This document shows, one piece after another, positions 1,713 through 29,795 of a stretch of DNA of 35,790 bases (the stretch's first letter is position 1; each line of letters begins with the position of its first letter). This DNA is from Candidatus Brocadiaceae bacterium (lineage in GTDB: Bacteria; Planctomycetota; Brocadiia; SM23-32). Under the pieces are notes generated by a model. It saw nothing but the letters and a program-made list of their open reading frames with translations, was not told the DNA's origin and made no database searches. The DNA is taken from positions 1 to 35,790 of the forward strand of contig PUMZ01000194.1 of the NCBI GenBank assembly GCA_003551565.1, written 5' to 3'. The position numbers were made by a program, and so were the translations under genes.

Positions 1713-1756
1713 TATCTATCACAACCAGGTAACATTCCGTTAAAGGAGGCGTTCTT

Positions 1757-5652: not shown

Positions 5653-5665
5653 CGGAGGCATGCCG

Positions 5666-7578: not shown

Positions 7579-7620
7579 TCGGCTCAGTTTTTACAGGAAA
7601 CATAAAATATAAAAAATAAC

Positions 7621-9006: not shown

Positions 9007-9045
9007 AAAAATGTTTGATGAAACGGGCGTGCAACTGCAAAGTTT

Positions 9046-9061
9046 TGGTACCATATTTGCT
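9046..9061 (+). promoter_or_regulatory. Sigma-54 promoter for the flgB-fliN operon
   Basis: TGGTAC (9046-9051), five bases, TTGCT (9057-9061). GG (9047-9048) and GC (9059-9060) are exactly ten bases apart; only one base of the -24 box differs from TGGCAC. Predicted start of transcription is near 9073, about 45 nt before the flgB ATG. It lies just after the activator gene, so the basal-body operon can be transcribed separately from its own regulator. Confidence 0.8.
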
Positions 9062-9116
9062 TTTAACCCGACGTATAAAGGCCAATAACGTAGCGGATGG
9101 AAAGGAGAGATCGGAT

Positions 9117-9470: not shown

Positions 9471-9555
9471 TTCTTTTCCACGATGCTGCCTGGAAAGGAT
9501 GTGCGGTTTCGCAGAATCAACGAGCGCCCGGTCGCTTCAACAGGAGGTAAAAAAA

Positions 9556-9960
9556 ATGGAAAACGAGGGAGTCTTCAGGGCCATGAACGTATCGGCCACG
9601 GGGCTGGACGCCCAGTGGCGACGGATACAGATGATTGCCAGCAATGTGGCCAATGCCGAAACCACCCGTACCCCGCAGGGCGGACCTTACCAGCCGAAAA
9701 AAATCGTCTTTTCGACAATTATGGACGGCCTGCAGGGCGTGAAAGTGGAAGGGGTTTTCGATTCGGACAGAGAACCCCGGCTGGTCCAGAACCCGGGACA
9801 TCCGGATGCCGACGATGAAGGGTTCGTCCGGATGCCAGACGTGAACATCCCCGAGGAGATGGTCGGGATGATGGCGGCAAGCCGTGCGTATGAGGCCAAC
9901 CTGGCGGTCATGGACAGATTCCGCAAGGTAACCGAAGAAGCCTTTAACCTCCTGAGGTGA
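9556..9960 (+). CDS. flgC: Flagellar proximal rod protein FlgC
   Basis: 134-aa rod subunit. The N-terminal rod signature (MIASNVANAETTRTP) is followed by a short beta region (YQPKKIVFSTI) and the conserved FlgC C-terminus (NIPEEMVGMMAASRAYEANL). Length is standard. Start ATG 9556 is chosen over an open frame beginning at 9454 because AGGAGG at 9542-9547 precedes it and the protein then begins at the family N-terminus. It lies 85 nt after flgB and its stop region carries the ribosome-binding site of fliE. Confidence 0.96.
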   Translation: MENEGVFRAMNVSATGLDAQWRRIQMIASNVANAETTRTPQGGPYQPKKIVFSTIMDGLQGVKVEGVFDSDREPRLVQNPGHPDADDEGFVRMPDVNIPEEMVGMMAASRAYEANLAVMDRFRKVTEEAFNLLR

Positions 9961-9966
9961 TCCGAG

Positions 9967-10275
9967 ATGGTCAACAATGGGATCGATTCCGTCGGTTCGG
10001 GATTCTCCGAGCCAGTAGAACAAAGCAACGGCAACCGGCAAAGAAACAATAATGCCGGAGAGTTCGGAAGACTGCTGAACGAAAAAGTTCATGAAGTGAA
10101 TGAGTTGCAGGTCGAAGCAGACAGGCTCGTGCGCGACCTGATAGCAGGAGAATCGGACAACATTCACGATGTACTGGTGGCCGTTAACGAAGCAGACCTC
10201 AGCTTCCGTCTGATGATGGAAGTGCGCAACAAATTGGTGGAAGCATACCAGGAAATTCAGAGGATGCAGATATAA
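9967..10275 (+). CDS. fliE: Flagellar hook-basal body protein FliE
   Basis: 102-aa protein that joins the MS ring to the rod and is needed to start export. The N-terminal 35 residues are polar and flexible; the C-terminal part is the conserved helical core (VNELQVEADRLVRDL, GESDNIHDVLVAVNEADLSF, RLMMEVRNKLVEAYQEI). The Shine-Dalgarno GAGGTGA overlaps the flgC stop codon, indicating translational coupling. Its own TAA is immediately followed by the ATG of fliF. Confidence 0.95.
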   Translation: MVNNGIDSVGSGFSEPVEQSNGNRQRNNNAGEFGRLLNEKVHEVNELQVEADRLVRDLIAGESDNIHDVLVAVNEADLSFRLMMEVRNKLVEAYQEIQRMQI

Positions 10276-11802: not shown

Positions 11803-11846
11803 GCTCTGGAACACCGCATGCAGAATGTACTGGCAGGTTATCTCTT

Positions 11847-12911
11847 ATGGCCGGGAAAAAGCAGATCAAACGGAAAGATGAGGATATGACCGAGGCACAG
11901 AAGGCTGCGATGCTCGTTATGAGCCTGGACGGAGAAAAAGCCGCATCCGTGCTGCAAAACATGAGCGATCATACCATTGCCAGACTGGGCAAGGCCGTGG
12001 AAAGCCTCCAGAATAAGGGCATAAAAAACGAACATAAGATTGAAGCGCTGAAGAGCTTTTTTCTCAAAAAAAGACGCGGGGGGATACTGATAGGGGCCCC
12101 GAGCGAACGGTTCCGGAAGGTGCTTGTTCAAGCTTTGGGAGAAGACAAGGCCAGGGAACTCGGTCCGGAGGAAGAGGTCATTGAAGAAGAAGAAATGTCT
12201 CAGGTGGAGGCCAACAGGCAGTATGTCGAATCGATGGAGGACGAAGTGCTCGCCGAAGCACTGAGCGGGGAGAGCCCCAGGACCGGAGCCGTGATGATCG
12301 CGATGCTGGGAGGAGAGCGGGTCGGTAAGATACTGAACCTTCTGGAAGCGGACCTCCGGGAAAAACTGCTGAACCGCATCATCGCCTCGGGAAACATTTC
12401 TGCGGACATCTCCGAAGAAATACTGGCGGGGTTCTGCGAGAAGCTGAGAAAAATCTCTGATTCCGAGGACAAGCCCGGGCCCGGCGAGCAATATCAGGCC
12501 CAGGAACTGAGCCAGATGCTGCTTACGCTGGAAAAAGAATCCCGGGATCGCATTCTTAACCAGTTGAAAGAACAGAATCCCGACCTTGCTGAAGAACTCG
12601 AACGCCTGATGCTGCAATTCGAAGATATCGTCAAGGTTGCTGACAGGTCCCTGCAGGAATTGATGCGCAATATCGAGACCAATGTCATTGCCATGGCGCT
12701 CAAAGGCGCGCCGGAAGAACTGGCCCAGAAAGTCATGGACAATATTTCCGAAAGAATGCAGGAACGGGTGCAGGAGGAACGTGAACTCAGCGGAAGGGTG
12801 CCCATGCGCGATGTGAAACAGGCAAGGGAAGAGATAATGCAATACGCCAGACAGCTCTACAGGGAAGGATCCCTGGTTGTCGAAACCGGAGGTGAAGAGT
12901 TTGTCGAATGA
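11847..12911 (+). CDS. fliG: Flagellar motor switch protein FliG (divergent)
   Basis: 354-aa rotor protein linking FliF to the C ring and contacting the MotA stator. The C-terminal torque domain is clear: FEDIVKVADRSLQELMR, then ALKGAPEELAQKVMDNISER and GRVPMRDVKQAREEI. The N-terminal domain is recognisable (MTEAQKAAMLVMSLDGEKAA) but followed by an unusually acidic EEEVIEEEEMSQ linker. The middle-domain EHPQ motif that binds FliM in model FliGs reads GESPR here, and the usual charged run EVD in the C-terminal domain reads NIET. These changes suggest co-evolution with the equally odd stator downstream. A 44-nt gap after fliF contains one ATGCAGA heptad. Start is supported only by a weak AGG. 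Confidence 0.92.
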   Translation: MAGKKQIKRKDEDMTEAQKAAMLVMSLDGEKAASVLQNMSDHTIARLGKAVESLQNKGIKNEHKIEALKSFFLKKRRGGILIGAPSERFRKVLVQALGEDKARELGPEEEVIEEEEMSQVEANRQYVESMEDEVLAEALSGESPRTGAVMIAMLGGERVGKILNLLEADLREKLLNRIIASGNISADISEEILAGFCEKLRKISDSEDKPGPGEQYQAQELSQMLLTLEKESRDRILNQLKEQNPDLAEELERLMLQFEDIVKVADRSLQELMRNIETNVIAMALKGAPEELAQKVMDNISERMQERVQEERELSGRVPMRDVKQAREEIMQYARQLYREGSLVVETGGEEFVE

Positions 12912-13533
12912 TAATGTCAGAAAACTCAGGCTGAAAGCGCCCCTGCAGAGGGTGCGCGAAGGAGGAAGAAACGAAACCGCCGGGACGGACCATCGGGGGG
13001 AGGAACAACGACAGCTTGCAGCAATGCGCGCTGCCATCACGCAGGACCGTGAAGAATTGGAAAAAAAAGAAGGGGCGCTGGCGGAGAAAGAACGGAGGTT
13101 TGACCGTCAACTAGAACGCCTGGCAAACCTTATTGCGAGTGCGGAAGAGGAGCAGGTCAGGATTCTTCAGGCAAGCGAAGAGGAAATCGTTTCCCTCAGT
13201 CTCACCATTGTGGAAAAAGTGCTCCAATCCGAGATAGAGAACGGACGTTATGAAATCGGCCGGATCGTCGAATCCACGTTAAAAAATGTCAAAAACCAAA
13301 GCGATATCGCCGTACGGGTGCATCCCGATGATTATGAAATGGCCAGTGTTGCGGTGGAGAAGATCGGCCCGAACGGTGCTGCAACCAGCATGAAAGTGAT
13401 TCCTGACGGCTCCATTGCGCCCGCTTCCTGCCGTATTGAGACCGGAATCGGTAAGGTCTACTCCGACATTTCCGGACGGCTGCACCGGATTAAGGAAGCT
13501 TTGCTGCCGGGGGAACAACGGGAGCAGGAATGA
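12901..13533 (+). CDS. fliH: Flagellar assembly protein FliH
   Basis: About 210-aa regulator of the export ATPase FliI. The N-terminal third is charged coiled coil (EELEKKEGALAEKERRFDRQ), and the C-terminal half is the FliH/YscL fold: EEEIVSLSLTIVEKVLQSEI, DIAVRVHPDDYEMA, and CRIETGIGKVYSDISGRL, the counterpart of the family VET.fG.vDa...RL motif. The best start is TTG 12901, eight bases after GGAGGTGA and overlapping the end of fliG by 11 nt; an in-frame TTG at 12877 lacks such a site. Start confidence is moderate, identity is good. Confidence 0.88.
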   Translation: MSNDNVRKLRLKAPLQRVREGGRNETAGTDHRGEEQRQLAAMRAAITQDREELEKKEGALAEKERRFDRQLERLANLIASAEEEQVRILQASEEEIVSLSLTIVEKVLQSEIENGRYEIGRIVESTLKNVKNQSDIAVRVHPDDYEMASVAVEKIGPNGAATSMKVIPDGSIAPASCRIETGIGKVYSDISGRLHRIKEALLPGEQREQE

Positions 13534-13582
13534 GAGCAGGGCTGGGAAACGCCGTCATTTTGTCCGGGAAAAGCTTGAACCA

Positions 13583-14929
13583 ATGGATATGACCGAAAAA
13601 ATTAAAGTCGACCTGCAACCCTACATTGAACGCATAAAAGACATGGATTGCATGTCTTACGAAGGCGTCATCACCAGAGTTACAGGTTCAATTATCGAGG
13701 CGCGCAGCCCGGCGATGTCGGTCGGACAGCCCTGCGTGGTAAAGCATGGAAACGGTTCAGGGCGTACGACATTTTCCGCCGAAGTGATAGGGTTCCGGGA
13801 AGACATCACCGTACTTATGCCCCTGGAGAAGATGAACGGCGTACAGGCCGGGGATCGGATCTGTTCGGCGCCGCACGAGCTTGAGATAGGACTCGGCGAA
13901 GGGCTTCTGGGCCGTGTGGTGGACGGACTCGGCAAGCCAATCGACGGAAAAGGACCCGTCATCTGCCCCGATCGCCTGCCGGTCAACAACGCGTCGCCCC
14001 ATCCGCTGAAACGCCCGCCGATCAACGAAGTGTTCGAAACCGGTATAAGGGCCGTCGACGTTCCCCTCACGCTGGGTAAAGGACAGAGGGTGGGCGTTTT
14101 CAGCGGCGCCGGCGTGGGAAAGAGCACGCTGCTGGGAGAGATCGCACGCGGCGGAGAGGCGGATGTGAATGTTATATGCCTGGTGGGCGAGAGGGGCCGC
14201 GAAGTGGGAGAGTTTCTGCGCCATAACCTGGGAGAAGACGGCCTCAGAAAATCGGTGATAGTGGTGGGGACGGCCGACGTGCCCCCTTTGCTGAAGATCA
14301 AGGCGGCTTATACTTCCACCACGATTGCCGAATATATGAGAGACAGGGGTATGAACGTTCTGTACATGATGGATTCCATTACCAGGGTGGCCAACGCGCA
14401 ACGCGAGGTGGGGCTGGCGGCCGGAGAACCGCCAACCACGCGCGGTTATCCGCCGACGGCGTTCAGCATTATTCCGGAACTTGCGGAACGGCTCGGATGT
14501 TCCCGGACGGGGAGCATTACCGGAATATATTCCGTACTGGTGGAAAGGGACGATTTCACCGAACCCGTCGCCGACGTTGCCAGGGCGACACTGGACGGGC
14601 ATATCGCCATGGGCCGCTTTCTGGCCGACAGAGGCCATTACCCCGCAATCGACGTGCTGGCTAGCGTGAGCAGAGTGATGCGGGAGCTGGTAACGGAAAA
14701 ACACCTGAAAACGGCGCGCAAACTGAAACACGCCCTGAGCACGTACAGGGAAGCTGAAGACCTCATCAAAATAGGCGCTTACGTGAAAGGAAGCAACCGG
14801 CAGATCGATATGGCCATCGACCTCATGCCGGAGATCAACCGGTTTCTGTGCCAGGATACCGGACACAGGACCGATATGGAAACAGCCCTTGCGGATGCTT
14901 CCGAAATACTCCGGAACTGGGAGGATTAA
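13583..14929 (+). CDS. fliI: Flagellum-specific ATPase FliI
   Basis: 448-aa ATPase of the flagellar type III export machine, related to F-type ATPase beta subunit. N-terminal barrel, then Walker A GAGVGKST at 175-182 (Lys180), the ICLVGERGREVGEF segment with its catalytic Glu, YMMDSITRVANAQREVGLA with the Walker B aspartate, and GYPPTAFSIIPELAERLG. All catalytic elements are present. ATG 13583 gives a standard-length protein; the open frame runs back to 13415 inside fliH but that extension is unrelated in sequence. No strong ribosome-binding site is visible for 13583, so ATG 13589 is an alternative. Confidence 0.96.
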   Translation: MDMTEKIKVDLQPYIERIKDMDCMSYEGVITRVTGSIIEARSPAMSVGQPCVVKHGNGSGRTTFSAEVIGFREDITVLMPLEKMNGVQAGDRICSAPHELEIGLGEGLLGRVVDGLGKPIDGKGPVICPDRLPVNNASPHPLKRPPINEVFETGIRAVDVPLTLGKGQRVGVFSGAGVGKSTLLGEIARGGEADVNVICLVGERGREVGEFLRHNLGEDGLRKSVIVVGTADVPPLLKIKAAYTSTTIAEYMRDRGMNVLYMMDSITRVANAQREVGLAAGEPPTTRGYPPTAFSIIPELAERLGCSRTGSITGIYSVLVERDDFTEPVADVARATLDGHIAMGRFLADRGHYPAIDVLASVSRVMRELVTEKHLKTARKLKHALSTYREAEDLIKIGAYVKGSNRQIDMAIDLMPEINRFLCQDTGHRTDMETALADASEILRNWED

Positions 14930-14935
14930 AAACGA

Positions 14936-15391
14936 ATGGCTGAAAATAAATTTCCGTTCAGGTTCCGAAAATTGCTTGAACTGCGTGAACAGCAGCAGAA
15001 AATGGCCGAAATGGAACTGGCTGAGAAGGAACAAACCATCTGCAGGCAAAAAGCACTTGTCGATGAAAAAGAAGCTCTTAAGTGCAAAGCAATAAAACAT
15101 CAGCGCGAAGCTTCCCTTGCCGCGGATCTGCTGATGAGGTCGGCATGTGCGGCCCACCTCCGGCGCCTCAACGGACAGATCGCTGCCGACCGCAAAAAAC
15201 TGGACGGGCTTGTCCGCAGCCGTGAGCAGGCACGGGGAAAGCTACGGAAGGCGGCTGTGGCACGGGAAGCTTTAGAGAACTACAGGGACAAAAAAAGATC
15301 GGAATTTTTCGCCGGAATGGAACGGCTTGATGAAAGGGTTGCCGAAACCAACAGGATCAATGGAAGGGCCGTCTTGGAGAAAGCGCGATGA
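14936..15391 (+). CDS. fliJ: Flagellar export protein FliJ
   Basis: 151-aa coiled-coil stalk protein inserted into the FliI hexamer that connects ATP hydrolysis to the export gate. It shows the family N-terminus (FPFRFRKLLELREQQQKMAE) followed by uninterrupted charged helices to the end, including a RDKKRSEFFAGMERLDE segment typical of FliJ. Length is standard. It begins six bases after the fliI stop, and its own stop overlaps the start of the next gene by four bases (ATGA). Confidence 0.9.
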   Translation: MAENKFPFRFRKLLELREQQQKMAEMELAEKEQTICRQKALVDEKEALKCKAIKHQREASLAADLLMRSACAAHLRRLNGQIAADRKKLDGLVRSREQARGKLRKAAVAREALENYRDKKRSEFFAGMERLDERVAETNRINGRAVLEKAR

Positions 15392-16110
15392 AAAAAAAAG
15401 TGATAGTTATTGCTGTTCTGGCCACACAAACTCTGCTGGTGTTCGCTTTGAGTTTCGTAACGGTCGTCGTATGGCGCGGCGGCGTTGCTCCGGACAGCCG
15501 CCTGACCCGCCTGCCGGTTCTGGGTCCGCTCCTCGTTGCCGAAGAGGCAAAGCCGGTGCAGAAGGAAGCTCCCGATCCCACCTTCTCGGCCGTACCGCCG
15601 GTTTACGGTCCGGCGCTATTTTTGCAGCTCGGAGCGGAAGGGCGGGTGGAGCGGTTGGGCAGGAAACTGGAACAAAGCAAACTGGAACAGGAAAGAAAAC
15701 TCTCGGAGCTCCGGCTGCGTCGGAGGGAACTCGACTCCTGGAGCGATCAGATCGAAAAGGAACGGGAAGCTTTGAGGGAGAAGTTCGAGAGCAAGGCCGA
15801 GCAAATCGGCAGGAGAGAAGACGAGCTGGAGCGGCGGAGCGAGGAGCTGAACCGGCAGGAGCATCGCATCAAAGCGGCGGAGCGGAGCAATCTTGAAAAA
15901 ACCGCACAAATCTATGAGAGGATGGATCCGGAAAGAGCCGGAGCCATCCTCGCCGAGATTTACCGGGAGGGTGATAAGGATACGGCGGTAAAAATCATTG
16001 CTCTGATGCGGGACAGGAACGCTGCGCAGACGATCGCAGCCATGCCCGGTGAACACATCGGAGCCGATATCACCGGAATGCTGAAATACGTTACCACCGA
16101 GGAGAAATAA
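15388..16110 (+). CDS. MotE-like coiled-coil membrane protein
   Basis: 240-aa protein with one N-terminal membrane segment (residues about 5-27, IVIAVLATQTLLVFALSFVT), a proline-rich linker to about 75, a long Arg/Glu coiled coil (about 85-170) and a C-terminal MgtE-N-like helical domain (YERMDPERAGAILAEIYREG, then VKIIALMRDRNAAQTIAAM). This build matches MotE, the periplasmic chaperone/adaptor encoded with stator or fliJ genes in several phyla, often at the place where fliK might be expected. Translation is coupled to fliJ by an ATGA overlap, and motA follows after one base. It is not FliK: no hook-length-control C-terminal domain is visible. Confidence 0.75.
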   Translation: MKKKVIVIAVLATQTLLVFALSFVTVVVWRGGVAPDSRLTRLPVLGPLLVAEEAKPVQKEAPDPTFSAVPPVYGPALFLQLGAEGRVERLGRKLEQSKLEQERKLSELRLRRRELDSWSDQIEKEREALREKFESKAEQIGRREDELERRSEELNRQEHRIKAAERSNLEKTAQIYERMDPERAGAILAEIYREGDKDTAVKIIALMRDRNAAQTIAAMPGEHIGADITGMLKYVTTEEK

Positions 16111-16111
16111 T

Positions 16112-16879
16112 ATGGACATCGCCACAGCGATAGGAATCCTGGCTGGTTTCGTGGTGGTTTCCGGGGCCATCGTCCTTGGGGGAGGCGCCCTGATGTTCGT
16201 GAACGTGCCGGCCATGCTCATCACCTTCGGCGGAACATTCTGCGCCACCCTGGTCCACTTCCCGCTCGGCGATATCGTGGGGATTACCGGAGCGGTTAAG
16301 CGAACATTTTCCGTGAACATCCCCCTGGCCGAGGACATCATCAACAGCATGAGTGAGTATGCGCGCACCGCCAGGCGCGACGGGGTGCTGGCGCTCGAAG
16401 AAGCCATGTCCGAATGCAGGGACGATTTCCTCAGCAAGGGCCTTCAGATGATCATCGACGGCGTGGAGCGCGATCAGATCGAGGAAGTCATGCTCATCGA
16501 GCTCAACGCACTTCAGAGACGGAACCGTCTGGGCGCGAAAATACTTGCGTTTATGGGCGACGCAGCACCGGCCTTCGGAATGGTGGGTACGCTGATCGGG
16601 CTTATCCAGATGCTCCGGGAACTGGAAGATCCCGATGCGATCGGCCACGGCATGGCAGTGGCGCTTCTTACGACATTCTATGGCGCCCTGATAGCCAATC
16701 TGCTCTTCATACCACTTGCCGGAAAGCTGCGAAAAAGAGAAGAGGAAGAAGAAACTGTGCGGCGGATGATCATCGAAGGCTGCTGCTCCATACAGGCGGG
16801 CGTCAACCCCGCGGTGCTGGAAGACAGACTGACCTCGTTCCTGACCCCCGGCGAACGGAATGAACAGCAAGCAAAATAA
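16112..16879 (+). CDS. motA: Flagellar stator protein MotA
   Basis: 255-aa polytopic stator subunit; five MotA surround two MotB and convert ion flow into torque. Four membrane segments are visible: about 3-22, 30-50, and the pair after residue 150. The cytoplasmic loop keeps the conserved ARRDGVLALE segment with torque residues, and the third helix begins with the family signature APAFGMVGTLIGLIQML followed by GHGMAVALLTTFYGALIAN and IPLAGKL with both conserved prolines. A GAGGAGA ribosome-binding site precedes ATG. It is followed by two MotB-type genes rather than one. Confidence 0.96.
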   Translation: MDIATAIGILAGFVVVSGAIVLGGGALMFVNVPAMLITFGGTFCATLVHFPLGDIVGITGAVKRTFSVNIPLAEDIINSMSEYARTARRDGVLALEEAMSECRDDFLSKGLQMIIDGVERDQIEEVMLIELNALQRRNRLGAKILAFMGDAAPAFGMVGTLIGLIQMLRELEDPDAIGHGMAVALLTTFYGALIANLLFIPLAGKLRKREEEEETVRRMIIEGCCSIQAGVNPAVLEDRLTSFLTPGERNEQQAK

Positions 16880-16923
16880 CCAAACGACAGAACCTTTGTA
16901 AGCTCCGTTATGAGGAAGACAAG

Positions 16924-17562
16924 ATGGCGGAAACTAAAAAAGGCGCGCCGAAATGGATGGTGACATTCGGCGACGCCGTGACACTGCTGCTGACTTTTTT
17001 CGTGCTGCTGATGACCTTCAGCGGGCCGGAAGAAGAAGCTTTGGATGAGCTGAGGAGGGGATTTTCCGCCGGAATCGACAGCTTCGGAATTTACCGGGCG
17101 AAACCGGGCGCAGATGCCGTGATCGAAAAAGAACTGAAGCTCTTGATGGCACGCATGGATGTTGGTACATCGCAATACCCCGAGAAATATGCCCGACTGG
17201 CCGTGCAGGAGATGCAAAAGTTTCACGAGGATATCGATGTCGAAGAGCTCCCCGATGAAGACAAGCTGAAAGCAATAAAAATAAGGGTTCCTCTCGATGT
17301 GATCTTCGGACCCGACGGGCGCCTCAGCGAACAGGGCGCCGGGATACTGGACCGAAACGCCGTCATTACGCGGGCAAAGAACTACAGCATCGTGGTCAGG
17401 GTCGAAGCGGGTGCGAAAGGCACTGATTATGCCTTAATAATAGCCGATTACCTGAGAGAAAGGGTATCTCCGGACACGCGGGAAATCGGCCTGTCAAACG
17501 ATTTCCAGCCCCGCAGCCCTTTGAAGGACGGGGAATGTCTGATCCTCCTGATCGAGGTGTAG
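16924..17562 (+). CDS. motB: Stator protein MotB with degenerate OmpA-like domain
   Basis: 212 aa, shorter than most MotB. The N-terminal stator helix is canonical: PKWMVTFGDAVTLLLTFFVL, with the ion-binding aspartate at position 17. The periplasmic part (about 115-212) has the OmpA-like opening (IRVPLDVIFGPDGRLSEQGA) but the peptidoglycan-binding block is missing: the GHTD motif and the following NweLS..RA segment collapse to RVEAGAKGTDYALIIADYL. So it probably conducts ions but may not grip peptidoglycan by itself. A GAGGA ribosome-binding site is seven bases upstream. The next gene starts five bases after its stop and uses a ribosome-binding site inside this gene, so the two products are likely made together. 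Confidence 0.9.
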   Translation: MAETKKGAPKWMVTFGDAVTLLLTFFVLLMTFSGPEEEALDELRRGFSAGIDSFGIYRAKPGADAVIEKELKLLMARMDVGTSQYPEKYARLAVQEMQKFHEDIDVEELPDEDKLKAIKIRVPLDVIFGPDGRLSEQGAGILDRNAVITRAKNYSIVVRVEAGAKGTDYALIIADYLRERVSPDTREIGLSNDFQPRSPLKDGECLILLIEV

Positions 17563-17566
17563 CAGC

Positions 17567-18325
17567 GTGAACCTCCTGAGAAAGAGTGCGAAAGAAGACG
17601 ATGATGGCGAGGGCAACGGCGCCCCGGCTTTCATGGTCTATTACTGCAGCGTTATGATCCTGCTGCTGGCCTTTTTCATCGTGCTGCAGGCGTTTGCAGA
17701 AGAACGGCATGAAGAGATGTTTTACAGGGGAAGGGGCTCCTTCATCAGCGCGCTGGATGCGTTCGGGCTTGGGACCCTGAGCCCGGATCTCAGCCGAAAT
17801 CCGAGCAGAAAGATCGCACCGCAATACAAACCGGAGGAAGGCGCCGACAGGGAACCCACCGACCAGAGAATCGACCCCGACACCGAAGCAGCCCGGAAAA
17901 TCATGATGGAACTGGCCAGGGAGATGGAACTCGAACATGTTGAGGGGGCCACCGGTTACAGGGTGGAGATTGCCACCCCGGTCGAATACAGACCCGGCAA
18001 GACGGCCCTGACGGAAGAAGAGAAGCGGATCCTCAAAAGGGTGGGCCCGAGACTGGAAGGCCGGATCCGGGCCCACGGCTTCGTGGTGAGGATCAGTTCC
18101 GCAATGCCCGGCGGGCCGGAGGATCAGGTGGGGCAACGGGTCGACGAAGTGCTGAAACTGGCCACCATGGTCCGCAGCACATTGATATCCGGTATGAGCC
18201 CCCGGGGGCGCAGCATGGCAGAACAACACATATACTCTTTTGTCCGAAACGACGGGGACGGTCGGGCCGCCAACGGAGAAACCCGGAACTTCAATCTGGT
18301 TTTGACCCAGCCGTATACGGATTAG
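17567..18325 (+). CDS. MotB paralogue lacking the ion-binding aspartate
   Basis: 252 aa. The N-terminus aligns without gaps to the upstream MotB: APAFMVYYCSVMILLLAFF against APKWMVTFGDAVTLLLTFF. The aspartate of FGD is replaced by serine (YCS, residue about 28), so the essential ion-binding carboxylate of stator B subunits is absent. The C-terminal domain keeps an OmpA-like outline (YRPGKTALTEEEKRIL, IRAHGFVVRISSAMPGG) but no GHTD or LS..RA motif. Start GTG 17567 has GAGGTG within the end of motB, giving coupled synthesis. It may form MotA5-B-B' heteromers, or be a structural or regulatory stator partner. It is not simply a pseudogene: the frame is intact and its spacing is operon-like. Confidence 0.8.
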   Translation: MNLLRKSAKEDDDGEGNGAPAFMVYYCSVMILLLAFFIVLQAFAEERHEEMFYRGRGSFISALDAFGLGTLSPDLSRNPSRKIAPQYKPEEGADREPTDQRIDPDTEAARKIMMELAREMELEHVEGATGYRVEIATPVEYRPGKTALTEEEKRILKRVGPRLEGRIRAHGFVVRISSAMPGGPEDQVGQRVDEVLKLATMVRSTLISGMSPRGRSMAEQHIYSFVRNDGDGRAANGETRNFNLVLTQPYTD

Positions 18326-18334
18326 CCGAACATT

Positions 18335-18364
18335 TTATCAACCAACGACAATAATTAATATAAA
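18335..18364 (+). promoter_or_regulatory. Possible sigma-70-type promoter before fliL
   Basis: The 93-nt gap before fliL is strikingly AT-rich compared with its surroundings. TTATCA (18335-18340) and TATAAA (18359-18364) are 18 bases apart, a tolerable -35/-10 pair. The match is modest and experimental support is absent. A GG-N10-TC site at 18369 fails the sigma-54 rule. Confidence 0.25.
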
Positions 18365-18418
18365 TATTGGAAAGTTTGATTCTTTCCTCAAAAACCATCG
18401 CCTGGGGGAAATGCAAAA

Positions 18419-18925
18419 GTGAACAACGCCATTCCCGGAAGCGGAAATATCATGGGGCGTCGTGACGGAGTCGGATCCGTGATGGCGCTGTTACTGTTGT
18501 CCACCAGTATCCTCTTCGTGGCCCTGGGGGTTGCGGCTGCAGTCCTCGTTATGCGTCCGGGCAAAGAATCTTTACCGGAGGCGGAAGCGCCGCGTGGACG
18601 AAAGACGGCGGAGGTCACGTTCCGGACGGTGGTGGTGAATCTGAAAGGAGAACGGCTGACCCGTCTTGTGCAGACAACAGTTGCGGTGCAGGTGCAGGGT
18701 GAGCGCAGACGAGAACTTGAGGCGCTGTTGGAAGACAGGAAAGTGCTGTTCCTGAACTGGTTGATAAAACACCTGTCCGACAAAACGATCAAAGATGTGG
18801 AAGGGGCTGCGGCCCTGCGAAAACTCCAAAGGGAAATCGAGGACGGGTTCAACGCCATTCTCGCTTCCATAGGTACGCCGTTTGAAATCGAAGCCGTCCT
18901 TTTCGAGGAGTTCAATGTGCAATGA
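18419..18925 (+). CDS. fliL: Flagellar basal body-associated protein FliL
   Basis: 168-aa single-span inner-membrane protein that rings the stator in other bacteria and stabilises it. One membrane segment at about 22-45 (SVMALLLLSTSILFVALGVA), then the periplasmic stomatin-like FliL domain: TFRTVVVNLKGERLTRLVQT, ALLEDRKVLFLNWLIKHLSD and the family ending VLFEEFNVQ. GTG 18419 is preceded by GGGGGA; ATG 18452 is a possible later start. The stop overlaps fliM (ATGA). Given the degenerate peptidoglycan-binding domains of the two MotB proteins, FliL could carry extra weight in holding the stator here. Confidence 0.88.
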   Translation: MNNAIPGSGNIMGRRDGVGSVMALLLLSTSILFVALGVAAAVLVMRPGKESLPEAEAPRGRKTAEVTFRTVVVNLKGERLTRLVQTTVAVQVQGERRRELEALLEDRKVLFLNWLIKHLSDKTIKDVEGAAALRKLQREIEDGFNAILASIGTPFEIEAVLFEEFNVQ

Positions 18926-19917
18926 GCGAGAAGGGAAAACAAAAACTGAGCAGAGATGAACTGTCGGAGCTGCTGAATTTGCGGGAAAAAGCCACCGCAA
19001 CAGCAGAGCCCGCCGAGGACGGGCGGCGTGTGAGCCGGTACGATTTTTCCCAGCCCAGCAGGTTCAACAAGTCCGAATTGGACTCGCTGCGCAAAATCAA
19101 CGAGTCCCTCGCGCAGGGCGTGGCCGGCGGACTTTCAAAACTGATGGAAGCCGGACTCAAAGTACGCCTGGAAGAGATGGACCAGATGAAATGGGGCGAT
19201 CTGACCGAAGATTCCGGGGATTGCGGCCCCGGCTTCGCATTCAAAATGGATCCGGGAAACTACGATTGCGCTTTTCTTATCGACCGGAAGCTGGCGGTTC
19301 ATTGTGTTGACCGGTTGACCGGCGGTATGGGACCTCTGGAGGCAGAAGAAACGGAAGACGAAAAAGAGGCGGAAGCCGCCGTACTGACCCCCCTGGAGCA
19401 AAAATTGCTCGTGAAGATTGCCGGCTGCTTTCTGCATAAACTGCCCGAAATATGGGCGGGGGCGGGACCGCTTGAGGTCGCTGCAGGAGAGTTTGTCGAC
19501 GACCTCAGCGATTATGGCCTGATGTCGCCGGAAGAAGACGTTTTTTGGGTCTCTTTTCTCGTTCAGAGCACGATAGGGACCGGGCGGGCGGGTCTGGCGG
19601 TTCCCTTCCAGGCCATACAGTCACTTCCACCCAGCTCACACCAGACGGGACGGAACGTCGCCCGGAGCAATGAAGATGTAGAAAAAAGCCTCCGGGGAAG
19701 CCTGGAGGGTAGTCCGGTCACGCTGACCGCCGTGCTGGGGAATACCGATATGAAGGTAAGAAACCTGTTGAACATCGAGACGGGAGACGTTCTGCTCCTG
19801 GGGAAAGCTATAGATGCAAGGATGGATTTGCTGATCAACAAGCGCCCCAAAATGAAGGGATATGTGGGTATTTCCTCGGGCAAGTATGCCGTTAAAATCG
19901 ATAACCGGGAGGAGTGA
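18922..19917 (+). CDS. fliM: Flagellar motor switch protein FliM
   Basis: 331-aa C-ring protein that binds phosphorylated CheY and sets rotation direction. Residues 8-20 (KLSRDELSELLNL) match the CheY-binding peptide (LSQ.EID.LL). YDFSQPSRFNKSELDSLRKI is the family signature that opens the CheC-like middle domain; this domain is divergent and carries an acidic loop (EAEETEDEKEAEAA). The C-terminal SpoA domain (about 250-328) contains LTAVLGNTDMKVRNLLNIET and ends with KMKGYVGISSGKYAVKI. Translation is coupled to fliL by a four-base overlap. Confidence 0.95.
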   Translation: MSEKGKQKLSRDELSELLNLREKATATAEPAEDGRRVSRYDFSQPSRFNKSELDSLRKINESLAQGVAGGLSKLMEAGLKVRLEEMDQMKWGDLTEDSGDCGPGFAFKMDPGNYDCAFLIDRKLAVHCVDRLTGGMGPLEAEETEDEKEAEAAVLTPLEQKLLVKIAGCFLHKLPEIWAGAGPLEVAAGEFVDDLSDYGLMSPEEDVFWVSFLVQSTIGTGRAGLAVPFQAIQSLPPSSHQTGRNVARSNEDVEKSLRGSLEGSPVTLTAVLGNTDMKVRNLLNIETGDVLLLGKAIDARMDLLINKRPKMKGYVGISSGKYAVKIDNREE

Positions 19918-22098: not shown

Positions 22099-24933
22099 AT
22101 GCCGCAACATCGATTACAAATTGCCGATGTAGCATCTGGCCGGAACCGGAAATTCAACATTCAAGACCCTCGTCTTTTGCCCTTGCTCGCCCTTCTCCCC
22201 CTGCTGACGTTCACGCACACCATCGCCCGGGGCAAAGGCCCCGGCGTGGAGGTGCGCGTGACCTCCCCCCATGATGTCGAGACCGATCCCGGTATGATAG
22301 TGACCGGCGCCTTCCTGGTGCGTAACGATACTGGCCGGGAAAGAGAGTTTGTTGATATCCTGCAGATTCCGCACGGCTGGCGACCGGTCACAACGCACGG
22401 CGACCCGTTTGTGCTGGACGACGGCGCCGAAGCCGTCAGGACGGTAGCTTTGCACGTACCTTCCGCCGCGGGAGCAGGCGAATACGGCATTTCGTACACC
22501 ATCAGGGACCGGAGGGATTACGGCATAACGGATTCCGACACCTTCACCGTGCGGGTGCGACCGGTGGTGGCGCTGAAACTGATGCCGGAAGATGCGCCGG
22601 AGTCGGTCGTCGCCGGCGACGTGATCGAGATCGTGATGCGGCTTATCAACCGGGGGAACGTAACGCGGACTATCGCGCTTGAGGCGAGTATACGACAGCA
22701 CTGGCCGCTCCGGATCGATCCGGAGAAGCAGCGCCTGGCGCCCGGAGAGTCCACGGTGGTGAACGTAACCGTTGAGACCGACGAACACATCGCCAGGGAC
22801 ACCCGGTGCCGCCCGACCGTCAAAGCGACGACAGGGCGCATTATAGCAACCTCTGCCGAGGAATCGGTCTCGGTCCGGATCGTGCCCCGGCCGCCGGAAC
22901 GGATCGACCCGTACCGCAGGATCGATTCCCGGATCAAAATCGTTGCCGTCGGCGGCGACCGCGGCGAAGGGATGCAGGCAGAGCTCTCCGGCGGAGGATA
23001 CCTGGACGCGGACGGGGAGCGTCGTTTGGATTTTTTCTTTCGCGCCCCCGATATCAGCGATCAACGCTACGGAAGACGCGACGAGTACCGGATGAGTTAT
23101 TCCGACAGCGCGGTCACCGCCCATATTGGGGACAGATCATATTCGCTTTCCGATCTGACGGAAAGGCACCGGTACGGGCGGGGGGTGGAGCTCAACCTGC
23201 ATCCCGGCGAAGTGTTCGCAACGGGCGCGCATTTCGTGCGTACCCGTTGGGGCGAGCCGAGGGAGAAGCAGAGCGGCGTGTACGGCGAGGCGCAGATGAA
23301 CGACTGGTTCCGGCTGCGGGGAAACGTGCTGTGGAAAGAAAGAGAGAAGGAAAATCATATCTACAGCCTCCAGTCGCGCATCACTGTGCATGAGGCCTTC
23401 AACCTCGGCCTGGAATATGGCTACAGCAACACGCGCGGGGCCGGCAACGATACCGCTTACCGGATGGATTTCTCCGGCCGTGCATGGGAAAGAGTAAGAT
23501 ATTCCGTGCTCAAAATCCGGGCTGAACCGGGCTATGCCGGCTATTACAGCGATGCGGACTCGCTGTCGGGCCGCATTTTTTTCCCGCTGACAGACGGCGT
23601 CCGGGGCAGTTTTTCCTACAGGGAGTATGCCCGGAATCTCGACCGTGATACCGAACTCAGATCTGCCGAGCGCACCCGGCACTACGGAACGGGATTGAAC
23701 TGCCGCCTCCCCACACGGACAAACATTTCTCTCGATTACCACAGACGCTGCACCAGGGACGTGCTGCCCGATCCGCGCTATGACTACATGACGGATGTTG
23801 TCGGACTGGGGGTGCGTCAGAGAATTGGTTGGGCAAGTCTCAGCTTGCGCACCGAACGCGGCGAACACCGCGACAGATTGAACAACTCGACCCGACGCGG
23901 CCTGGAAAGATACCGGCTTTCCGCCTCCTTCCGGCCCAGCAGCCGGCAAAGATACGGCGCTTACTACAACTTCGGGCACAGCTACTTCCGCACCGCCGAA
24001 CCGGCAAGAACCAGGTCGGCCGGTGCGTCCGGTTCCTGGGACATAACCCGGACCCTCACAGCCGGACTCCGTTATTCGAAAAGCGGACTGGAATCGGAGA
24101 CTCTTCCGACCGGCAGGTGGAGCGGATCGCTTTCCTACTCGCTGCCGAACGGCCACCGGCTATCGGCACGCGGCTCGTGGAGCAGGCGCAGAGGCCGGGA
24201 TTCGAGCAGTTATGCCTACGCTTCCTACACCGTTCCGTTCGGCATACCCGTGGGCAGGGATCAAGATATCGGACGGATCAAGGGGGCGATCTACGATGCC
24301 GAAACGTACGAGCCCCTCCCCCGGGTGAGGGTTTGGTTGAACGAACATACGGCCGTCACCGATGACGACGGCGAGTTCGATTTTCCGGCGCTGGAACCCG
24401 GCACGCACCTGTTGCGTATCAACAGGCATGACGTGGGGCTCGACAGGGTGACGGTTGACCGGACGCCCATCAACGTTGAAGTCCAGCCCGGGCGGACGGA
24501 ATACGTCGATGTACCCGTGGTCAAATCCGCCGAAATATCCGGACGCGTGGCTGTTTTCGGTTTCGATAACGGCAACAACTATCTCGATTACAGGGATATC
24601 AACGATTTTCGGGACAACAATTTGAAGCTTTCCGGTGACGGAAATGGGTTGGTCCAGGTCGGCGCCCTGGCCGGTATTCTGATCGAGCTCCGGAACGGCA
24701 CAGAGGTGTTCCGGCAGATGACCGGATCCGGGGGAGCGTTTGTTTTCAAAGAGCTCAGGCCGGGGCGTTGGACGCTCAGGATGTATGGCAACGATAACTT
24801 GCCGGACCATTACTATCCGGAACAGGAAGAGTATGTGTTGAAGCTCGATCCGGGCGATATGTCCCATGTCCTCATCCGGGTCCTGCCCCGAGAACGGCGG
24901 ATACGTATCATTGATGAAGGAGAAGTGGAGTAG
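22099..24933 (+). CDS. Usher-like outer-membrane barrel with Ig and Cna-B-type domains
   Basis: 944 aa. After a long basic leader and hydrophobic core (LLPLLALLPLLTF, about 28-41) come two NEW3/CARDB-like Ig domains (about 48-145 and 150-265). Residues about 270-735 are a run of amphipathic strands with alternating aromatic/Arg and Gly/Ser residues (WSGSLSYSLPNGHRLSARGS), typical of an outer-membrane beta-barrel. A CarboxypepD_reg domain follows (GRIKGAIYDAETYEPLPRVR, TDDDGEFDFPALEPGTHLLR), then an SdrD-B-like domain with Asp/Asn-rich FDNGNNYLDYRDINDF and KELRPGRWTLRM. Classical ushers have a different N-terminal domain, but the barrel plus two C-terminal beta domains is usher-like. Start ATG 22099 has a weak site. 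Partner genes upstream support secretion or assembly of a surface fibre. Confidence 0.65.
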   Translation: MPQHRLQIADVASGRNRKFNIQDPRLLPLLALLPLLTFTHTIARGKGPGVEVRVTSPHDVETDPGMIVTGAFLVRNDTGREREFVDILQIPHGWRPVTTHGDPFVLDDGAEAVRTVALHVPSAAGAGEYGISYTIRDRRDYGITDSDTFTVRVRPVVALKLMPEDAPESVVAGDVIEIVMRLINRGNVTRTIALEASIRQHWPLRIDPEKQRLAPGESTVVNVTVETDEHIARDTRCRPTVKATTGRIIATSAEESVSVRIVPRPPERIDPYRRIDSRIKIVAVGGDRGEGMQAELSGGGYLDADGERRLDFFFRAPDISDQRYGRRDEYRMSYSDSAVTAHIGDRSYSLSDLTERHRYGRGVELNLHPGEVFATGAHFVRTRWGEPREKQSGVYGEAQMNDWFRLRGNVLWKEREKENHIYSLQSRITVHEAFNLGLEYGYSNTRGAGNDTAYRMDFSGRAWERVRYSVLKIRAEPGYAGYYSDADSLSGRIFFPLTDGVRGSFSYREYARNLDRDTELRSAERTRHYGTGLNCRLPTRTNISLDYHRRCTRDVLPDPRYDYMTDVVGLGVRQRIGWASLSLRTERGEHRDRLNNSTRRGLERYRLSASFRPSSRQRYGAYYNFGHSYFRTAEPARTRSAGASGSWDITRTLTAGLRYSKSGLESETLPTGRWSGSLSYSLPNGHRLSARGSWSRRRGRDSSSYAYASYTVPFGIPVGRDQDIGRIKGAIYDAETYEPLPRVRVWLNEHTAVTDDDGEFDFPALEPGTHLLRINRHDVGLDRVTVDRTPINVEVQPGRTEYVDVPVVKSAEISGRVAVFGFDNGNNYLDYRDINDFRDNNLKLSGDGNGLVQVGALAGILIELRNGTEVFRQMTGSGGAFVFKELRPGRWTLRMYGNDNLPDHYYPEQEEYVLKLDPGDMSHVLIRVLPRERRIRIIDEGEVE

Positions 24934-25094: not shown

Positions 25095-28000
25095 ATGCAA
25101 AAGATATTTAGATACTTGCCCATGGATGAAGTCTTCAGCGGTGTTCTGTCGTTATTTCCCGGCAATCCGGGCAGAAGTTTGCTGCTGACGGCCCTCATCA
25201 TGGCCTCCGGATTTTTTTCTGTTTCCGTCGATGCACAGCCGTCGGACGTCGTTCTGGAATTTGACGGCGCCGACGGTTATGTCGAAATACCACACGCAAG
25301 TGCGCTGGATCCGGAGGACGATCATTGGACCTGCGAATTCTGGGTCAGGGTGCTCGAGCGCGTTGAAGGGGCCGATAAGTTCATAGCCAAACGGCACAGG
25401 GAGCGGGGTGTCGGCGCCGTGGGGTTTTATCTTGGGAACCGTTTTGCTCCGAATTGTGACGACGGAATCAGGCAAAACTTCGGGTTCGGAAGGATACCGC
25501 TTGATGAGTGGGTCCATATCGCCGTGCAGATTGACAGAGATGAAGACAAGTTCAGGGCCTATATGAATGGCGAGCTGGTTTCAGAGGGTGTTTCGGGGTT
25601 GACCGGGTCGGTTGCGTCTTCTTCCGACCTCATAATAGGCGGGGACAGTTTGGGACGGTTGCAGGGCTACCATTGCCAGATAAGCCACGTGCGCATCTGG
25701 AAAGGCGTGCACCTGACGCAGGAGATGATCCGCAACAACATGCATAATAAGGTTGCCGGCGACGCAGAAGGGCTGGCGGGTTACTGGCCCCTGGACGATG
25801 GCCGCGGCGGTACTGCACGGGACATCTCTGTGAACCGGAATGACGGGATCCTGACCGGAGAACAACAACCGAAGTGGATGCCTGCCCGGGCATTTGCGAG
25901 GAATCTGCCGGACGAAAAGAACGTCCAGCCGGGACAGGATGCAGTACTCGGTCCCGTGATGTTGCATGAACCGGAAGGAGAAGTCACCTATCAATGGTAT
26001 TTCAACGGAGAGCCGATCGCTGACGCCGAAGAGCCCTCGCTGACCATACAGGATGTCACGACCGATCATCTGGGGGTTTATTATGTCAAGGTCAATGACG
26101 ATCGCGAGGTGACACCGATAGCTTCCAACCACATGGAACTGCCGCCCTGGCCGCTGTGGCGGTCCGAACTGGAGGGCAAAATTGCAGAACGGGGGGACAC
26201 CGTTACTCTCGGCCCTGTGGAACTGTACGCGCCGCGGGGTGAAGTCAGCTACCAGTGGTTCCGGGACGGGAACCCCATCGAAGGAGCCACGGGCAACAGC
26301 CTCAGGATTGAGGGGGTCCGGGAAGAGGATCTGGGCGTCTATTATGTGCGCGTTGACGATGAACAGGACATGACCCCGGTCACCACCGGCGATTTAAGGT
26401 TGGCAGAAGCGCCTGCATGGCCGATGTGGCGGTATGATGCCGCCCGGTCCGCTTCGGCGCCGCAAGTTTTAGAAGAGGATCTGCATCTGCATTGGGTGAG
26501 GGAACTTCCGGAACCGAAACGTGCCTGGCCGCAACAGCAGGACGACGGCCGCACGTTGCAGTTCGACCTTTCTTACGCGCCGGTGGCCGCAGGGCGCCGT
26601 GTGTTTGTCCCCTCCAGCGTTACCGACAGCGTTACGGCGTACTGCATCGAAGACGGCAGCAAGCTGTGGCGCTACTACGCCAACGGCCCCGTGCGCCTGG
26701 CGCCTGCAGTGTGGCGGGGAAACGTTTATTTCGTCAGCGACGACGGTCACCTGTATTGTGTCGATGCAGACAGCGGAGAACTCGAGTGGAAATTCCGCGG
26801 TGGACCGTCGGACCACCGGCTGCTGGGAAACGCCAGGATCATCAACTTCTGGCCGGCGCGCGGCGCTCCTGCCGTCAAAGACGGCAGGGTTTATTTTGCC
26901 GCCGGGATATGGCCGTTCCACGGCGTGTTCGTCTACGCCCTTGATGCCGCGAGCGGAGATGTCGAGTGGGTCAGCGATACCAATGAACGCCTGGTGCCGC
27001 AGGGCTATATCGCAGCGGGAACCGATAAGCTCGTTGTCGCGGGCGGAAGGTCCGCGGGATATTATTTCAATCGCCATACCGGCGAACTCCTTGAACGCAC
27101 CCGGAGGGGCTACGAAGCGCATGCGGTCGATGGAGGCCGCATCGGGGAGGTCAAACCCCGCTCAACGTCCGAGACGACCTGGTATCTCGTCCACCGGCTC
27201 GATTCCCCGAGAAAAGCCAAAGTGAATCCGATGCTGCAATCGCGGTTGAACACTGTCAAAGATCGGATTGAGGGGACTGTTTTTTATAAGCTGGCGGCCT
27301 ACGGCAGGATGATTGTCAGCACAGAATGCGGCAAGCTGTACTGTTTCGGTCCGGAAGAGGTTGAACCGCAACGGCACGCACACAATCCCCTCCCGCTGGA
27401 GCCGGAGGGTGGACGATGGGCGGAGGTGGCTGAGAGCGTTCTGGATGAACTGGAAAGTCCGGGCGGCTATGCACTCATGCTCGGAGCCGGGTCCGGCGGC
27501 TTGCTCAAAGAAATTCTGAACGGAAGTGACTTGCATGTCGTGGTGGTCGAATCGGATGAGGAACGGGTGAGGGAACTGCGCGACAGGTTGGCGGAGTCCG
27601 GCCGTTACGGGCGCCGCGCCGCGGTCATCAAGGCCTCCCCATCCTCGTTCTCGGTACAGCCCTACCTGTTCAATCTCGTGATAAGTGAAGACATTGCCGG
27701 CGCAGAAGCCGGCGGGGAGGCCCGAATATCTGCTCTTCTCAACTGGCTTATGCCTTACTCGGGTGTCGCCTGGCTCGGGGCTTCTTCGGAAGACGCCGCT
27801 GCGCTGGCGGCTGTCGCCAACTCCGCCGGTGTTGACCGGGTATCGATTGAGGCGCGGGAGGATCACCTTTTCGCCACCCGAGATGGCCCGCTGACCGGCG
27901 CCGGGGAGTGGACCCATCAGTGGCATTGTACCGCCAATACGCTCACCTCCCTGGACAGCCGGGTGCGACTGCCCCTTGGTCTGTTGTGGTTCGGCGGTCC

Positions 28001-29795
28001 CACAAATCACAACATTCTGCCGCGCCATGCGCGCGGGCCCCGCCCCCAGGTTGCGGGGGGACGCCTGGTGTTTCTTGGGCCGGACACCATTGCGGCGCGC
28101 TGTGTCTATTCGGGACGCCATTTGTGGGAACGCGGCTTCCACGGTATCGGAGGGCCTTTCGATACCACGTCTCACCAGGCGGGCACTGCCTATATCGGCA
28201 GTCCGTTTGTAACCCTGCCCGACAGCATATACCTGCGCCATGACGGTATCGTTCATCGCCTCGACCCGGCAACCGGAGACACGCTGGCGGAATTCGAACC
28301 GCCGGGCAGAGCGCTGGAAGAAATATACGCGGCGGAAAAACTGGATGGCCTCATGGGCCTCGGGCGGAGGGAGCGTGCGCCGGACTGGGGACACATCAGC
28401 GTCCAGGGCGACTTTTTGATAACGACATCGGAACCGCATATGTTTGAAGGAGAGAGGTTGGGAGATCTTGAAAGCCACAGCGGATCCTCAAGCAGACTTC
28501 TTGCAGTGATGAACCGCTATAACGGTGACGTGTTATGGCAGCGGAAGGGCGATGCAGGCTTCCGGCACAATGCCATCATCAGCTCGGGAGACGTTCTCTT
28601 CGCCGTGGACGGGTTGTCCGAGGGAGCGCTTGCTTACCTGGCCCGCCGCGGCAAACAACCCGAAGATAATTCGCAACTGATGGCGCTCGATATCCGGACG
28701 GGGAAAGAACTCTGGGTGAAAAACAGCGAAGTTTTTGCCACCTTTTTACTCTACAGCGACGACCATGACATCCTTGTCGAGGGCGGGAGCTATGACCTGG
28801 ATAACCGGCGTATTCGCCGCGGCCTCGTCCTGCCCGGGGAACCCGAAATCGTCTCCGCCCGCCGTGGCCGTGACGGACAGCTCCTGTGGGAAGGAATCGA
28901 CCTGCGGCTGCCCGGTGCGGTCGCCGGAGAGATGCTTATTTCGGGATCGCAGAATAAATCCATATCGTTGCTGAGCGGTGAAACGTGGATGCGGGAACAG
29001 CCGCTGACAGGAGAAAAAAGCAACTGGACATATTCCAGGGCCGGAAAGGGTTGCGACATCATCAACGCAAGTCAACACCTGCTGTTGTTCCGCGCCGGAG
29101 ATGCAAGCTATCATGATCTGGAACATGATTCCGGACAGGGGTATTTTCACGGTTTTCGCAGCGGATGTACCACGAACCTCATACCCGCCGATGGTGTACT
29201 CAGCGCACTTGATTATACGCGCACCTGCAACTGTTCCTATTCCCATCAAACATCACTGGCCATGGTCAATATGCCCGATGGGCCGGGCGTGGATTTCTGG
29301 ACGCTCCACGAGGGATCACCACCTGACCCGGCGGGATTCGGTTTGAATTTCGGCGCACCCGGACGCAGGGTCGATGTCGAGGGTACGGGCTTTGTATGGC
29401 ATGACCGTTCCGGGACGCACCGGCGCCACCCGTCCGCTATCAAAGACAACGGCGGCGGCATCGGCTGGGTGGCCGCATCGGGGCGCGAAACAAGCGGCAC
29501 GATAACGATCAACGACCTGATCGACACCACGTATACGGTCCGCCTCCACTTTGCCGAGCCCGACGAAGAGATCGGCCCGGGCGAGCGGGTATTCGACGTG
29601 CTCATCGATGGCGAAAAGGTTCTCGACGGATTCGATATCGTACGCCAAACCGGTGGCGCTTTGCGCGGAGTGGTCAAGGAATTCTCCATGGTTGTGGAGG
29701 GCAGCCGGATGAGCCTGGAGCTCCGCAGCTGCGAAGATTCTCAGCGCGATCCGGTTATCAGCGGCATCGAAGTGCATGCAGAGGGTTACGAATGA
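25095..29795 (+). CDS. Giant secreted LamG-Ig-PQQ propeller-methyltransferase-malectin protein
   Basis: 1566 aa. Signal peptide (SLLLTALIMASGFFSVSVDA, residues about 35-52). Domains: LamG/concanavalin-like about 52-256 (VVLEFDGADGYVEIPHASAL, WVHIAVQIDRDEDKF, GYWPLDDGRGG); two Ig domains about 271-346 and 361-436 that are near duplicates (VTYQWYFNGEPIADA and VSYQWFRDGNPIEGA); first PQQ-type beta-propeller half about 442-752 (LWRYYANGPVRLAPAVWRGN, FRGGPSDHRLLGNARIINFW); a Rossmann methyltransferase-like domain about 775-933 with MLGAGSGG and acidic VVVES; second propeller half about 936-1386; malectin-like carbohydrate-binding domain about 1412-1565 (YTVRLHFAEPDEEIGPGERV). Substrate unknown; glycan binding is suggested by the end domains. 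ATG 25125 is a possible later start. Confidence 0.85.
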   Translation: MQKIFRYLPMDEVFSGVLSLFPGNPGRSLLLTALIMASGFFSVSVDAQPSDVVLEFDGADGYVEIPHASALDPEDDHWTCEFWVRVLERVEGADKFIAKRHRERGVGAVGFYLGNRFAPNCDDGIRQNFGFGRIPLDEWVHIAVQIDRDEDKFRAYMNGELVSEGVSGLTGSVASSSDLIIGGDSLGRLQGYHCQISHVRIWKGVHLTQEMIRNNMHNKVAGDAEGLAGYWPLDDGRGGTARDISVNRNDGILTGEQQPKWMPARAFARNLPDEKNVQPGQDAVLGPVMLHEPEGEVTYQWYFNGEPIADAEEPSLTIQDVTTDHLGVYYVKVNDDREVTPIASNHMELPPWPLWRSELEGKIAERGDTVTLGPVELYAPRGEVSYQWFRDGNPIEGATGNSLRIEGVREEDLGVYYVRVDDEQDMTPVTTGDLRLAEAPAWPMWRYDAARSASAPQVLEEDLHLHWVRELPEPKRAWPQQQDDGRTLQFDLSYAPVAAGRRVFVPSSVTDSVTAYCIEDGSKLWRYYANGPVRLAPAVWRGNVYFVSDDGHLYCVDADSGELEWKFRGGPSDHRLLGNARIINFWPARGAPAVKDGRVYFAAGIWPFHGVFVYALDAASGDVEWVSDTNERLVPQGYIAAGTDKLVVAGGRSAGYYFNRHTGELLERTRRGYEAHAVDGGRIGEVKPRSTSETTWYLVHRLDSPRKAKVNPMLQSRLNTVKDRIEGTVFYKLAAYGRMIVSTECGKLYCFGPEEVEPQRHAHNPLPLEPEGGRWAEVAESVLDELESPGGYALMLGAGSGGLLKEILNGSDLHVVVVESDEERVRELRDRLAESGRYGRRAAVIKASPSSFSVQPYLFNLVISEDIAGAEAGGEARISALLNWLMPYSGVAWLGASSEDAAALAAVANSAGVDRVSIEAREDHLFATRDGPLTGAGEWTHQWHCTANTLTSLDSRVRLPLGLLWFGGPTNHNILPRHARGPRPQVAGGRLVFLGPDTIAARCVYSGRHLWERGFHGIGGPFDTTSHQAGTAYIGSPFVTLPDSIYLRHDGIVHRLDPATGDTLAEFEPPGRALEEIYAAEKLDGLMGLGRRERAPDWGHISVQGDFLITTSEPHMFEGERLGDLESHSGSSSRLLAVMNRYNGDVLWQRKGDAGFRHNAIISSGDVLFAVDGLSEGALAYLARRGKQPEDNSQLMALDIRTGKELWVKNSEVFATFLLYSDDHDILVEGGSYDLDNRRIRRGLVLPGEPEIVSARRGRDGQLLWEGIDLRLPGAVAGEMLISGSQNKSISLLSGETWMREQPLTGEKSNWTYSRAGKGCDIINASQHLLLFRAGDASYHDLEHDSGQGYFHGFRSGCTTNLIPADGVLSALDYTRTCNCSYSHQTSLAMVNMPDGPGVDFWTLHEGSPPDPAGFGLNFGAPGRRVDVEGTGFVWHDRSGTHRRHPSAIKDNGGGIGWVAASGRETSGTITINDLIDTTYTVRLHFAEPDEEIGPGERVFDVLIDGEKVLDGFDIVRQTGGALRGVVKEFSMVVEGSRMSLELRSCEDSQRDPVISGIEVHAEGYE

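Follow-up and report, generated by a model that had tools for sequence, protein, structure and literature searches.

An exported propeller protein family with two circularly permuted domain orders and an altered methyltransferase-fold pocket

What does a methyltransferase fold do in a protein that leaves the cytoplasm? The question is raised by a single ORF with an ATG start (1566 aa; 25095-29795, forward strand) in Candidatus Brocadiaceae contig PUMZ01000194.1, of which the window, the whole stretch of DNA analysed here, covers 35,790 nucleotides. An earlier note on this DNA, made from its letters alone, had described a methyltransferase-like domain with a GAGSG motif and an acidic strand end, placed between propeller parts in a protein that carries a signal peptide. 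The ORF, Pfam searches, AlphaFold models and fold matches in the PDB confirm this observation, with GAGSG at residues 797-801 and the strand-2 acid at E819.

Layout and fold of the window protein

The order of parts is signal peptide, LamG, two Ig domains (both missed in the earlier description), a first propeller part (P1), a class I methyltransferase-fold domain (M), a second propeller part (P2) and malectin:

25095-29795, forward strand: whole ORF, exported propeller/methyltransferase-fold protein, 1566 aa (ORF and Pfam)
25095-25235, forward strand: predicted signal peptide, residues 1-47, cleavage between VDA and QP (from sequence; homologues agree)
25263-25724, forward strand: LamG/Laminin_G_3, residues 57-210, lineage-specific accessory (Pfam E 1e-14)
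25923-26093, forward strand: Ig-like domain 1, residues 277-333 (Pfam Ig_3, the better of two matches)
26190-26396, forward strand: Ig-like domain 2, about residues 366-434, limits approximate (second Ig_3 stretch and sequence repeat)
26409-27365, forward strand: P1, first BamB/PQQ-like propeller part, residues 439-757 (Pfam, core alignment, AlphaFold model, boundary profiles)
27396-27902, forward strand: class I methyltransferase-fold domain, residues ~768-936 (family profiles, AlphaFold, PDB fold matches)
27477-27479, forward strand: M795, where class I methyltransferases have the motif-I Asp/Glu (alignment with control methyltransferases)
27483-27497, forward strand: glycine loop GAGSG, residues 797-801 (sequence/alignment)
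27549-27551, forward strand: E819, acid closing strand beta2 (sequence/alignment)
27906-29390, forward strand: P2, second propeller part, residues 938-1432 (core alignment, model, boundary profiles)
29226-29234, forward strand: invariant CxC, C1378-N-C1380, in TRTCNCSY (core alignment)
29523-29768, forward strand: malectin-type C-terminal domain, residues 1477-1558 (Pfam E 1e-10)

The N terminus, ...GRSLLLTALIMASGFFSVSVDA followed by QP, is taken from the sequence as the signal peptide. P1 starts with WPMWRYDAARS, ends with GKLYCFGP and has about five blades in the AlphaFold model, while P2 starts with EWTHQ and includes LLWFGGP; PQQ_2 is matched by three stretches of the protein (Pfam, E 3e-26).

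In the window protein itself Methyltransf_25 falls below threshold at residues 794-864 (E 0.026; 15.7 bits, cut-off 27), and the same Pfam family is matched by 42 of 49 homologous domains, with a best E of 2.5e-9. The AlphaFold model of the isolated domain (pLDDT 96, pTM 0.92) displays the strand order alpha-beta1-alpha-beta2-alpha-beta3-beta4-alpha-beta5-alpha-beta6-beta7 of a canonical class I methyltransferase, a seven-stranded alpha/beta fold with an antiparallel last strand that Foldseek also recovers. The top PDB fold match is the SAM-dependent methyltransferase 3dlc (TM 0.80, E 2e-8), which also ranks first when the domain-family profile is compared with the sequences of solved structures, and the 50 PDB fold matches listed are methyltransferases, mostly SAM-dependent, or spermidine synthases. 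Domain search and structure prediction thus both uphold the class I methyltransferase fold. Two features led us to reject a NAD-type Rossmann fold: the last strands form the beta6-beta7 hairpin of methyltransferases, and the glycines are not spaced as in GxGxxG. A model of the whole core (residues 439-1432), built from a 43-sequence alignment, places the methyltransferase fold between the two propeller parts (pTM 0.86); whole-core Foldseek superpositions were poor. The domain shares its fold, glycine loop and beta2 acid with class I SAM-dependent methyltransferases (Methyltransf_25/11/31; 3dlc, MMP1179). However, it is exported, has lost the motif-I acid, is never free-standing and has no identified substrate site.

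The propeller parts also display features of known families. Blade repeats of the core match the PQQ_2 (PF13360) and BamB profiles, and these likewise belong to exported proteins. The core differs from BamB in its length of about 1000 aa and in combining two propeller parts with a methyltransferase-fold domain, and the window protein does not reach the BamB equivalog TIGR03300 (51.8 versus 285 bits). PQQ-dependent alcohol dehydrogenases and tetrathionate hydrolase are periplasmic propeller relatives of the core by sequence and fold, but the core matches generic blades only, at 10-17% identity. A PQQ enzyme was considered and set aside, as the family cut-offs are missed (PF01011, 26.5 bits with a cut-off of 26.7; TIGR03075, 24.8 versus 480).

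Spread, export and domain order of the family

Scanning species genomes yielded at least 569 relatives. The best 80 of these are mostly from Planctomycetota and also from Hydrogenedentota, Verrucomicrobiota, Kiritimatiellota, Armatimonadota, WS1, Latescibacterota, Omnitrophota, Firestonebacteria and others. The spread in PVC-type bacteria that the earlier note had supposed is therefore real and reaches beyond them; some of the genomes are metagenome bins, so single odd taxon placements may be contamination. Within the window's own phylum, the domain is found in 28 of 149 genomes in 1-19 copies each, essentially always inside a large ORF, and the window's own genome holds about 19 copies, paralogues of the window gene. 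In five such genomes, taken for comparison, the listed Methyltransf_25 matches sit in ORFs no longer than 515 aa, the only longer ones being members of this family. Among the relatives, a Gemmataceae member (L102, 478-5142) carries a complete-looking WD40 propeller at about residues 795-1112, within its P2 region. No viral relatives of the family were found, and a role in anti-phage defence was discounted, the sole match being a weak MADS-2 hit on the methyltransferase-like part. The open-licence literature searched holds no description of this family, in line with the earlier view that the combination is functionally undescribed.

Export appears to be a general property of the family. By a simple hydrophobicity and cleavage rule, a hydrophobic signal with a cleavage-like site, in keeping with Sec export, is present in 68 of the 72 testable homologues; this is the outcome of the check on signal peptides that the earlier note had asked for. 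In many of them the signal runs straight into the conserved start of P1 (ADWPMWRYDAxRS). The four invariant cysteines of the core alignment were also counted in support of export. Tat-like signals occur in only 2/160, which makes Tat export with pre-bound SAM unlikely.

Assigning domain order with profiles for the starts and ends of both propeller parts revealed two circularly permuted arrangements, P1-M-P2 (the window protein and most members) and M-P2-P1 (about 25 others). In the latter the domain directly follows the signal peptide, and the proteins end in a segment (GKVLCFG) that in the window protein comes just before the domain. In a tree of 192 domains, 24 of the 25 rows assigned to the permuted form group in one supported clade, the exception having a very long branch, and the main P1-M-P2 form falls in a separate clade. 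The description of the domain as inserted between propeller halves is thus true of P1-M-P2 proteins, including the window protein, but not of the second arrangement, which starts with the domain.

The SAM pocket and the genomic partners

Conservation of the pocket was assessed in 153 members with the P1-M-P2 order (type A), divided into a main branch of 138 with at least 80 bits and 15 outer members, and in 25 permuted members (type B). In class I methyltransferases, the acid at the end of beta2 binds ribose. It is present in 131/138 main-branch members and ranks 18th in conservation among 165 columns. GxGxG is complete in 92/138 main-branch members, at least two loop glycines are kept in 122/138 (the window protein has GAGSG), and at least two glycines and the beta2 acid occur together in 120/138. 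Of the 15 outer type A members, three have the beta2 acid and only one has at least two glycines together with the acid; for type B, this combination is found in 9/25. The glycine loop has decayed in the outer paralogues L044, L045, L046, L047, L049 and L050 (GEPEPG, AGGNDT), possibly a pseudo-methyltransferase branch.

A further position departs from the classical pattern. In classical class I enzymes the motif-I acid, which stands two positions ahead of the first glycine of the loop, is used near the methionine moiety of SAM. This acid is absent in 149/153 type A members, where V, L, M or I mostly takes its place, whereas correctly registered control methyltransferases from these genomes carry Asp or Glu there. 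The complete D-x-G-x-G motif survives in a few deep members. A conserved SED stands at the end of beta4, a usual site of catalytic residues, and the most conserved positions include ones outside the pocket (P887, R829, Y838-G-x-R841 and L885-R-P-Y-G-G). Because the motif-I acid is replaced in most members, by M795 in the window protein, the classical SAM site of the family is altered rather than intact, although a ribose-bearing ligand could still bind. Loss of the SAM pocket throughout, which the earlier note had named as refuting its view, gave a mixed outcome: not every homologue has lost the pocket, but its motif-I acid is gone in nearly all, and the outer branches have decayed further.

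At 12 of 79 loci, from different phyla, a protein with the motif ACxVPVFRYALExW and/or an FtsX-type permease bearing a CxC lies within about 5 kb of the core gene. The fuller operon runs in the order partner, FtsX-like permease, LolD-like ATPase, core, ModA-like binding protein, ModB-like permease and second ATPase, with some members missing or reordered in single genomes; its ModA scores above the NCBIfam cut-off. The partner is an uncharacterised, membrane-anchored protein that matches no Pfam or NCBIfam family; it has a signal at the N terminus, a hydrophobic segment at the C terminus and a GPCSCEVK motif. It is near single-copy per genome (for example L253, 10423-11625; L248, 8212-9519; and, in the window's own genome, L247, 5381-6445). 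Of the 149 genomes, 28 have the core and 26 the partner, and 25 have both (Fisher p 5e-24, without correction for shared ancestry); in the lone partner genome without the core a P2 fragment stands at the end of the partner's contig. A CxC is invariant in the core alignment (43/43), the partner (10/10) and the permease (9/9), and it recurs in 14/25 permuted members. In the permeases it forms part of ALECxC and lies in the periplasmic part (L253, 9138-10442; seven relatives; own genome L247, 6498-7895). The operon resembles LolCDE/MacB-type ABC systems and ModABC importers in its FtsX-like permease, LolD-like ATPase, ModA and ModB-like permease. It differs from them in that the permease falls far below the LolC/E cut-off and has the invariant CxC, and in being joined with a membrane-anchored protein of no known family and the core protein.

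In the window's own genome the partner and permease are found on contig C344, and the window gene is neither beside them nor in an operon of this kind. Upstream of it lies a flagellar cluster (591-19917: flagellin, FliF, FliG, a FliI-type ATPase, MotA/MotB and FliM), accompanied by a PAS histidine kinase and a sigma-54 response regulator. Between the two, at 22099-24933, is a 944-aa protein with a signal-anchor-like start, a long beta-barrel-looking region and CarboxypepD_reg domains, possibly an outer-membrane usher-like protein. No functional link was found between the ORF and its window neighbours, flagellar upstream and Germane, PIG-L and PMT-like downstream.

Possible roles of the domain and the family

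Loss of the motif-I acid, together with the fact that the family travels with an envelope transporter operon, points to a repurposed binding or scaffold module that is probably not a methylating enzyme. With moderate confidence, we regard the domain as an exapted module that, within an envelope apparatus, would bind a ligand or act as a scaffold and would not methylate. In most main-branch members, however, the kept beta2 acid and glycine loop could just as well reflect genuine SAM binding, another residue standing in for the motif-I acid. The full D-x-G-x-G in a few deep members, the position of the window gene outside the operon and a co-occurrence uncorrected for ancestry also count against this reading.

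Were the domain a real SAM-dependent methyltransferase in the periplasm or at the cell surface, SAM would have to come through an unknown exporter or from lysed neighbours. The intact fold with 3dlc as its nearest PDB match, the glycine loop with beta2 acid in 120/138, the conserved SED at the end of beta4 and the few complete D-x-G-x-G motifs all suit such an enzyme, but we consider it improbable: the motif-I acid is lost in 149/153, GxGxG is complete in only 92/138 with the outer branches decayed, no extracytoplasmic SAM pool is known, and export signals that are not Tat-like make a pre-bound cofactor unlikely. A purely structural role, in which the old fold braces the two propeller parts and binds no ligand, is more likely than a true methyltransferase, if still rather unlikely. 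It would fit the degenerate motifs of the outer type A and part of the type B members, and the top-conserved residues outside the pocket could form an interface; the fold alone, however, would not require a charged beta2 acid in 131/138 members at rank 18 of 165. The earlier note had also suggested a role on glycans for the whole protein. An enzyme that acts on or binds glycans, with the methyltransferase-like part as an auxiliary, would agree with LamG in some members, malectin in several, and two downstream genes of the window, PIG-L and one resembling a mannosyltransferase, yet only accessory domains of the protein itself speak for it. The protein lacks a catalytic carbohydrate domain. LamG and Ig are extras of particular lineages and missing from most relatives, only the malectin end is common, and the recurrent partners form an ABC/ModA-like operon rather than carbohydrate-active enzymes. 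This suggestion was not upheld, and we hold it to be very improbable.

Returning to the exapted module, we tentatively propose the following course of events. A SAM-binding enzyme ancestor may have been captured into an exported protein, its domain now serving to bind a ligand or to aid assembly; the retained ribose-binding acid might hold a nucleoside-like molecule. Beyond the cytoplasmic membrane, the core would work alongside the conserved FtsX/LolD-like ABC pair, the membrane-anchored CxC protein and the ModABC-like importer, and a thiol or metal relay built on CxC could plausibly connect them. LamG, Ig and malectin parts may have been added for surface attachment in paralogues like the window protein. 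More speculatively, and with low confidence, the family could form an undescribed envelope machine that evolved via circular permutation and uses either an extracytoplasmic SAM-like or nucleoside ligand or a CxC thiol or metal relay shared with these partners.

New here are the circular permutation, the partly kept SAM pocket with loss of the motif-I acid, and the co-occurring partner/ABC operon with its shared CxC. An exported methyltransferase fold in hundreds of species, with up to 19 copies per genome sampled, raises the question of whether these bacteria have an extracytoplasmic pool of SAM or nucleosides or have reused a catalytic fold as a scaffold. The conserved operon offers a single-copy genetic handle on the role of these abundant giant proteins in Planctomycetota and allied phyla.
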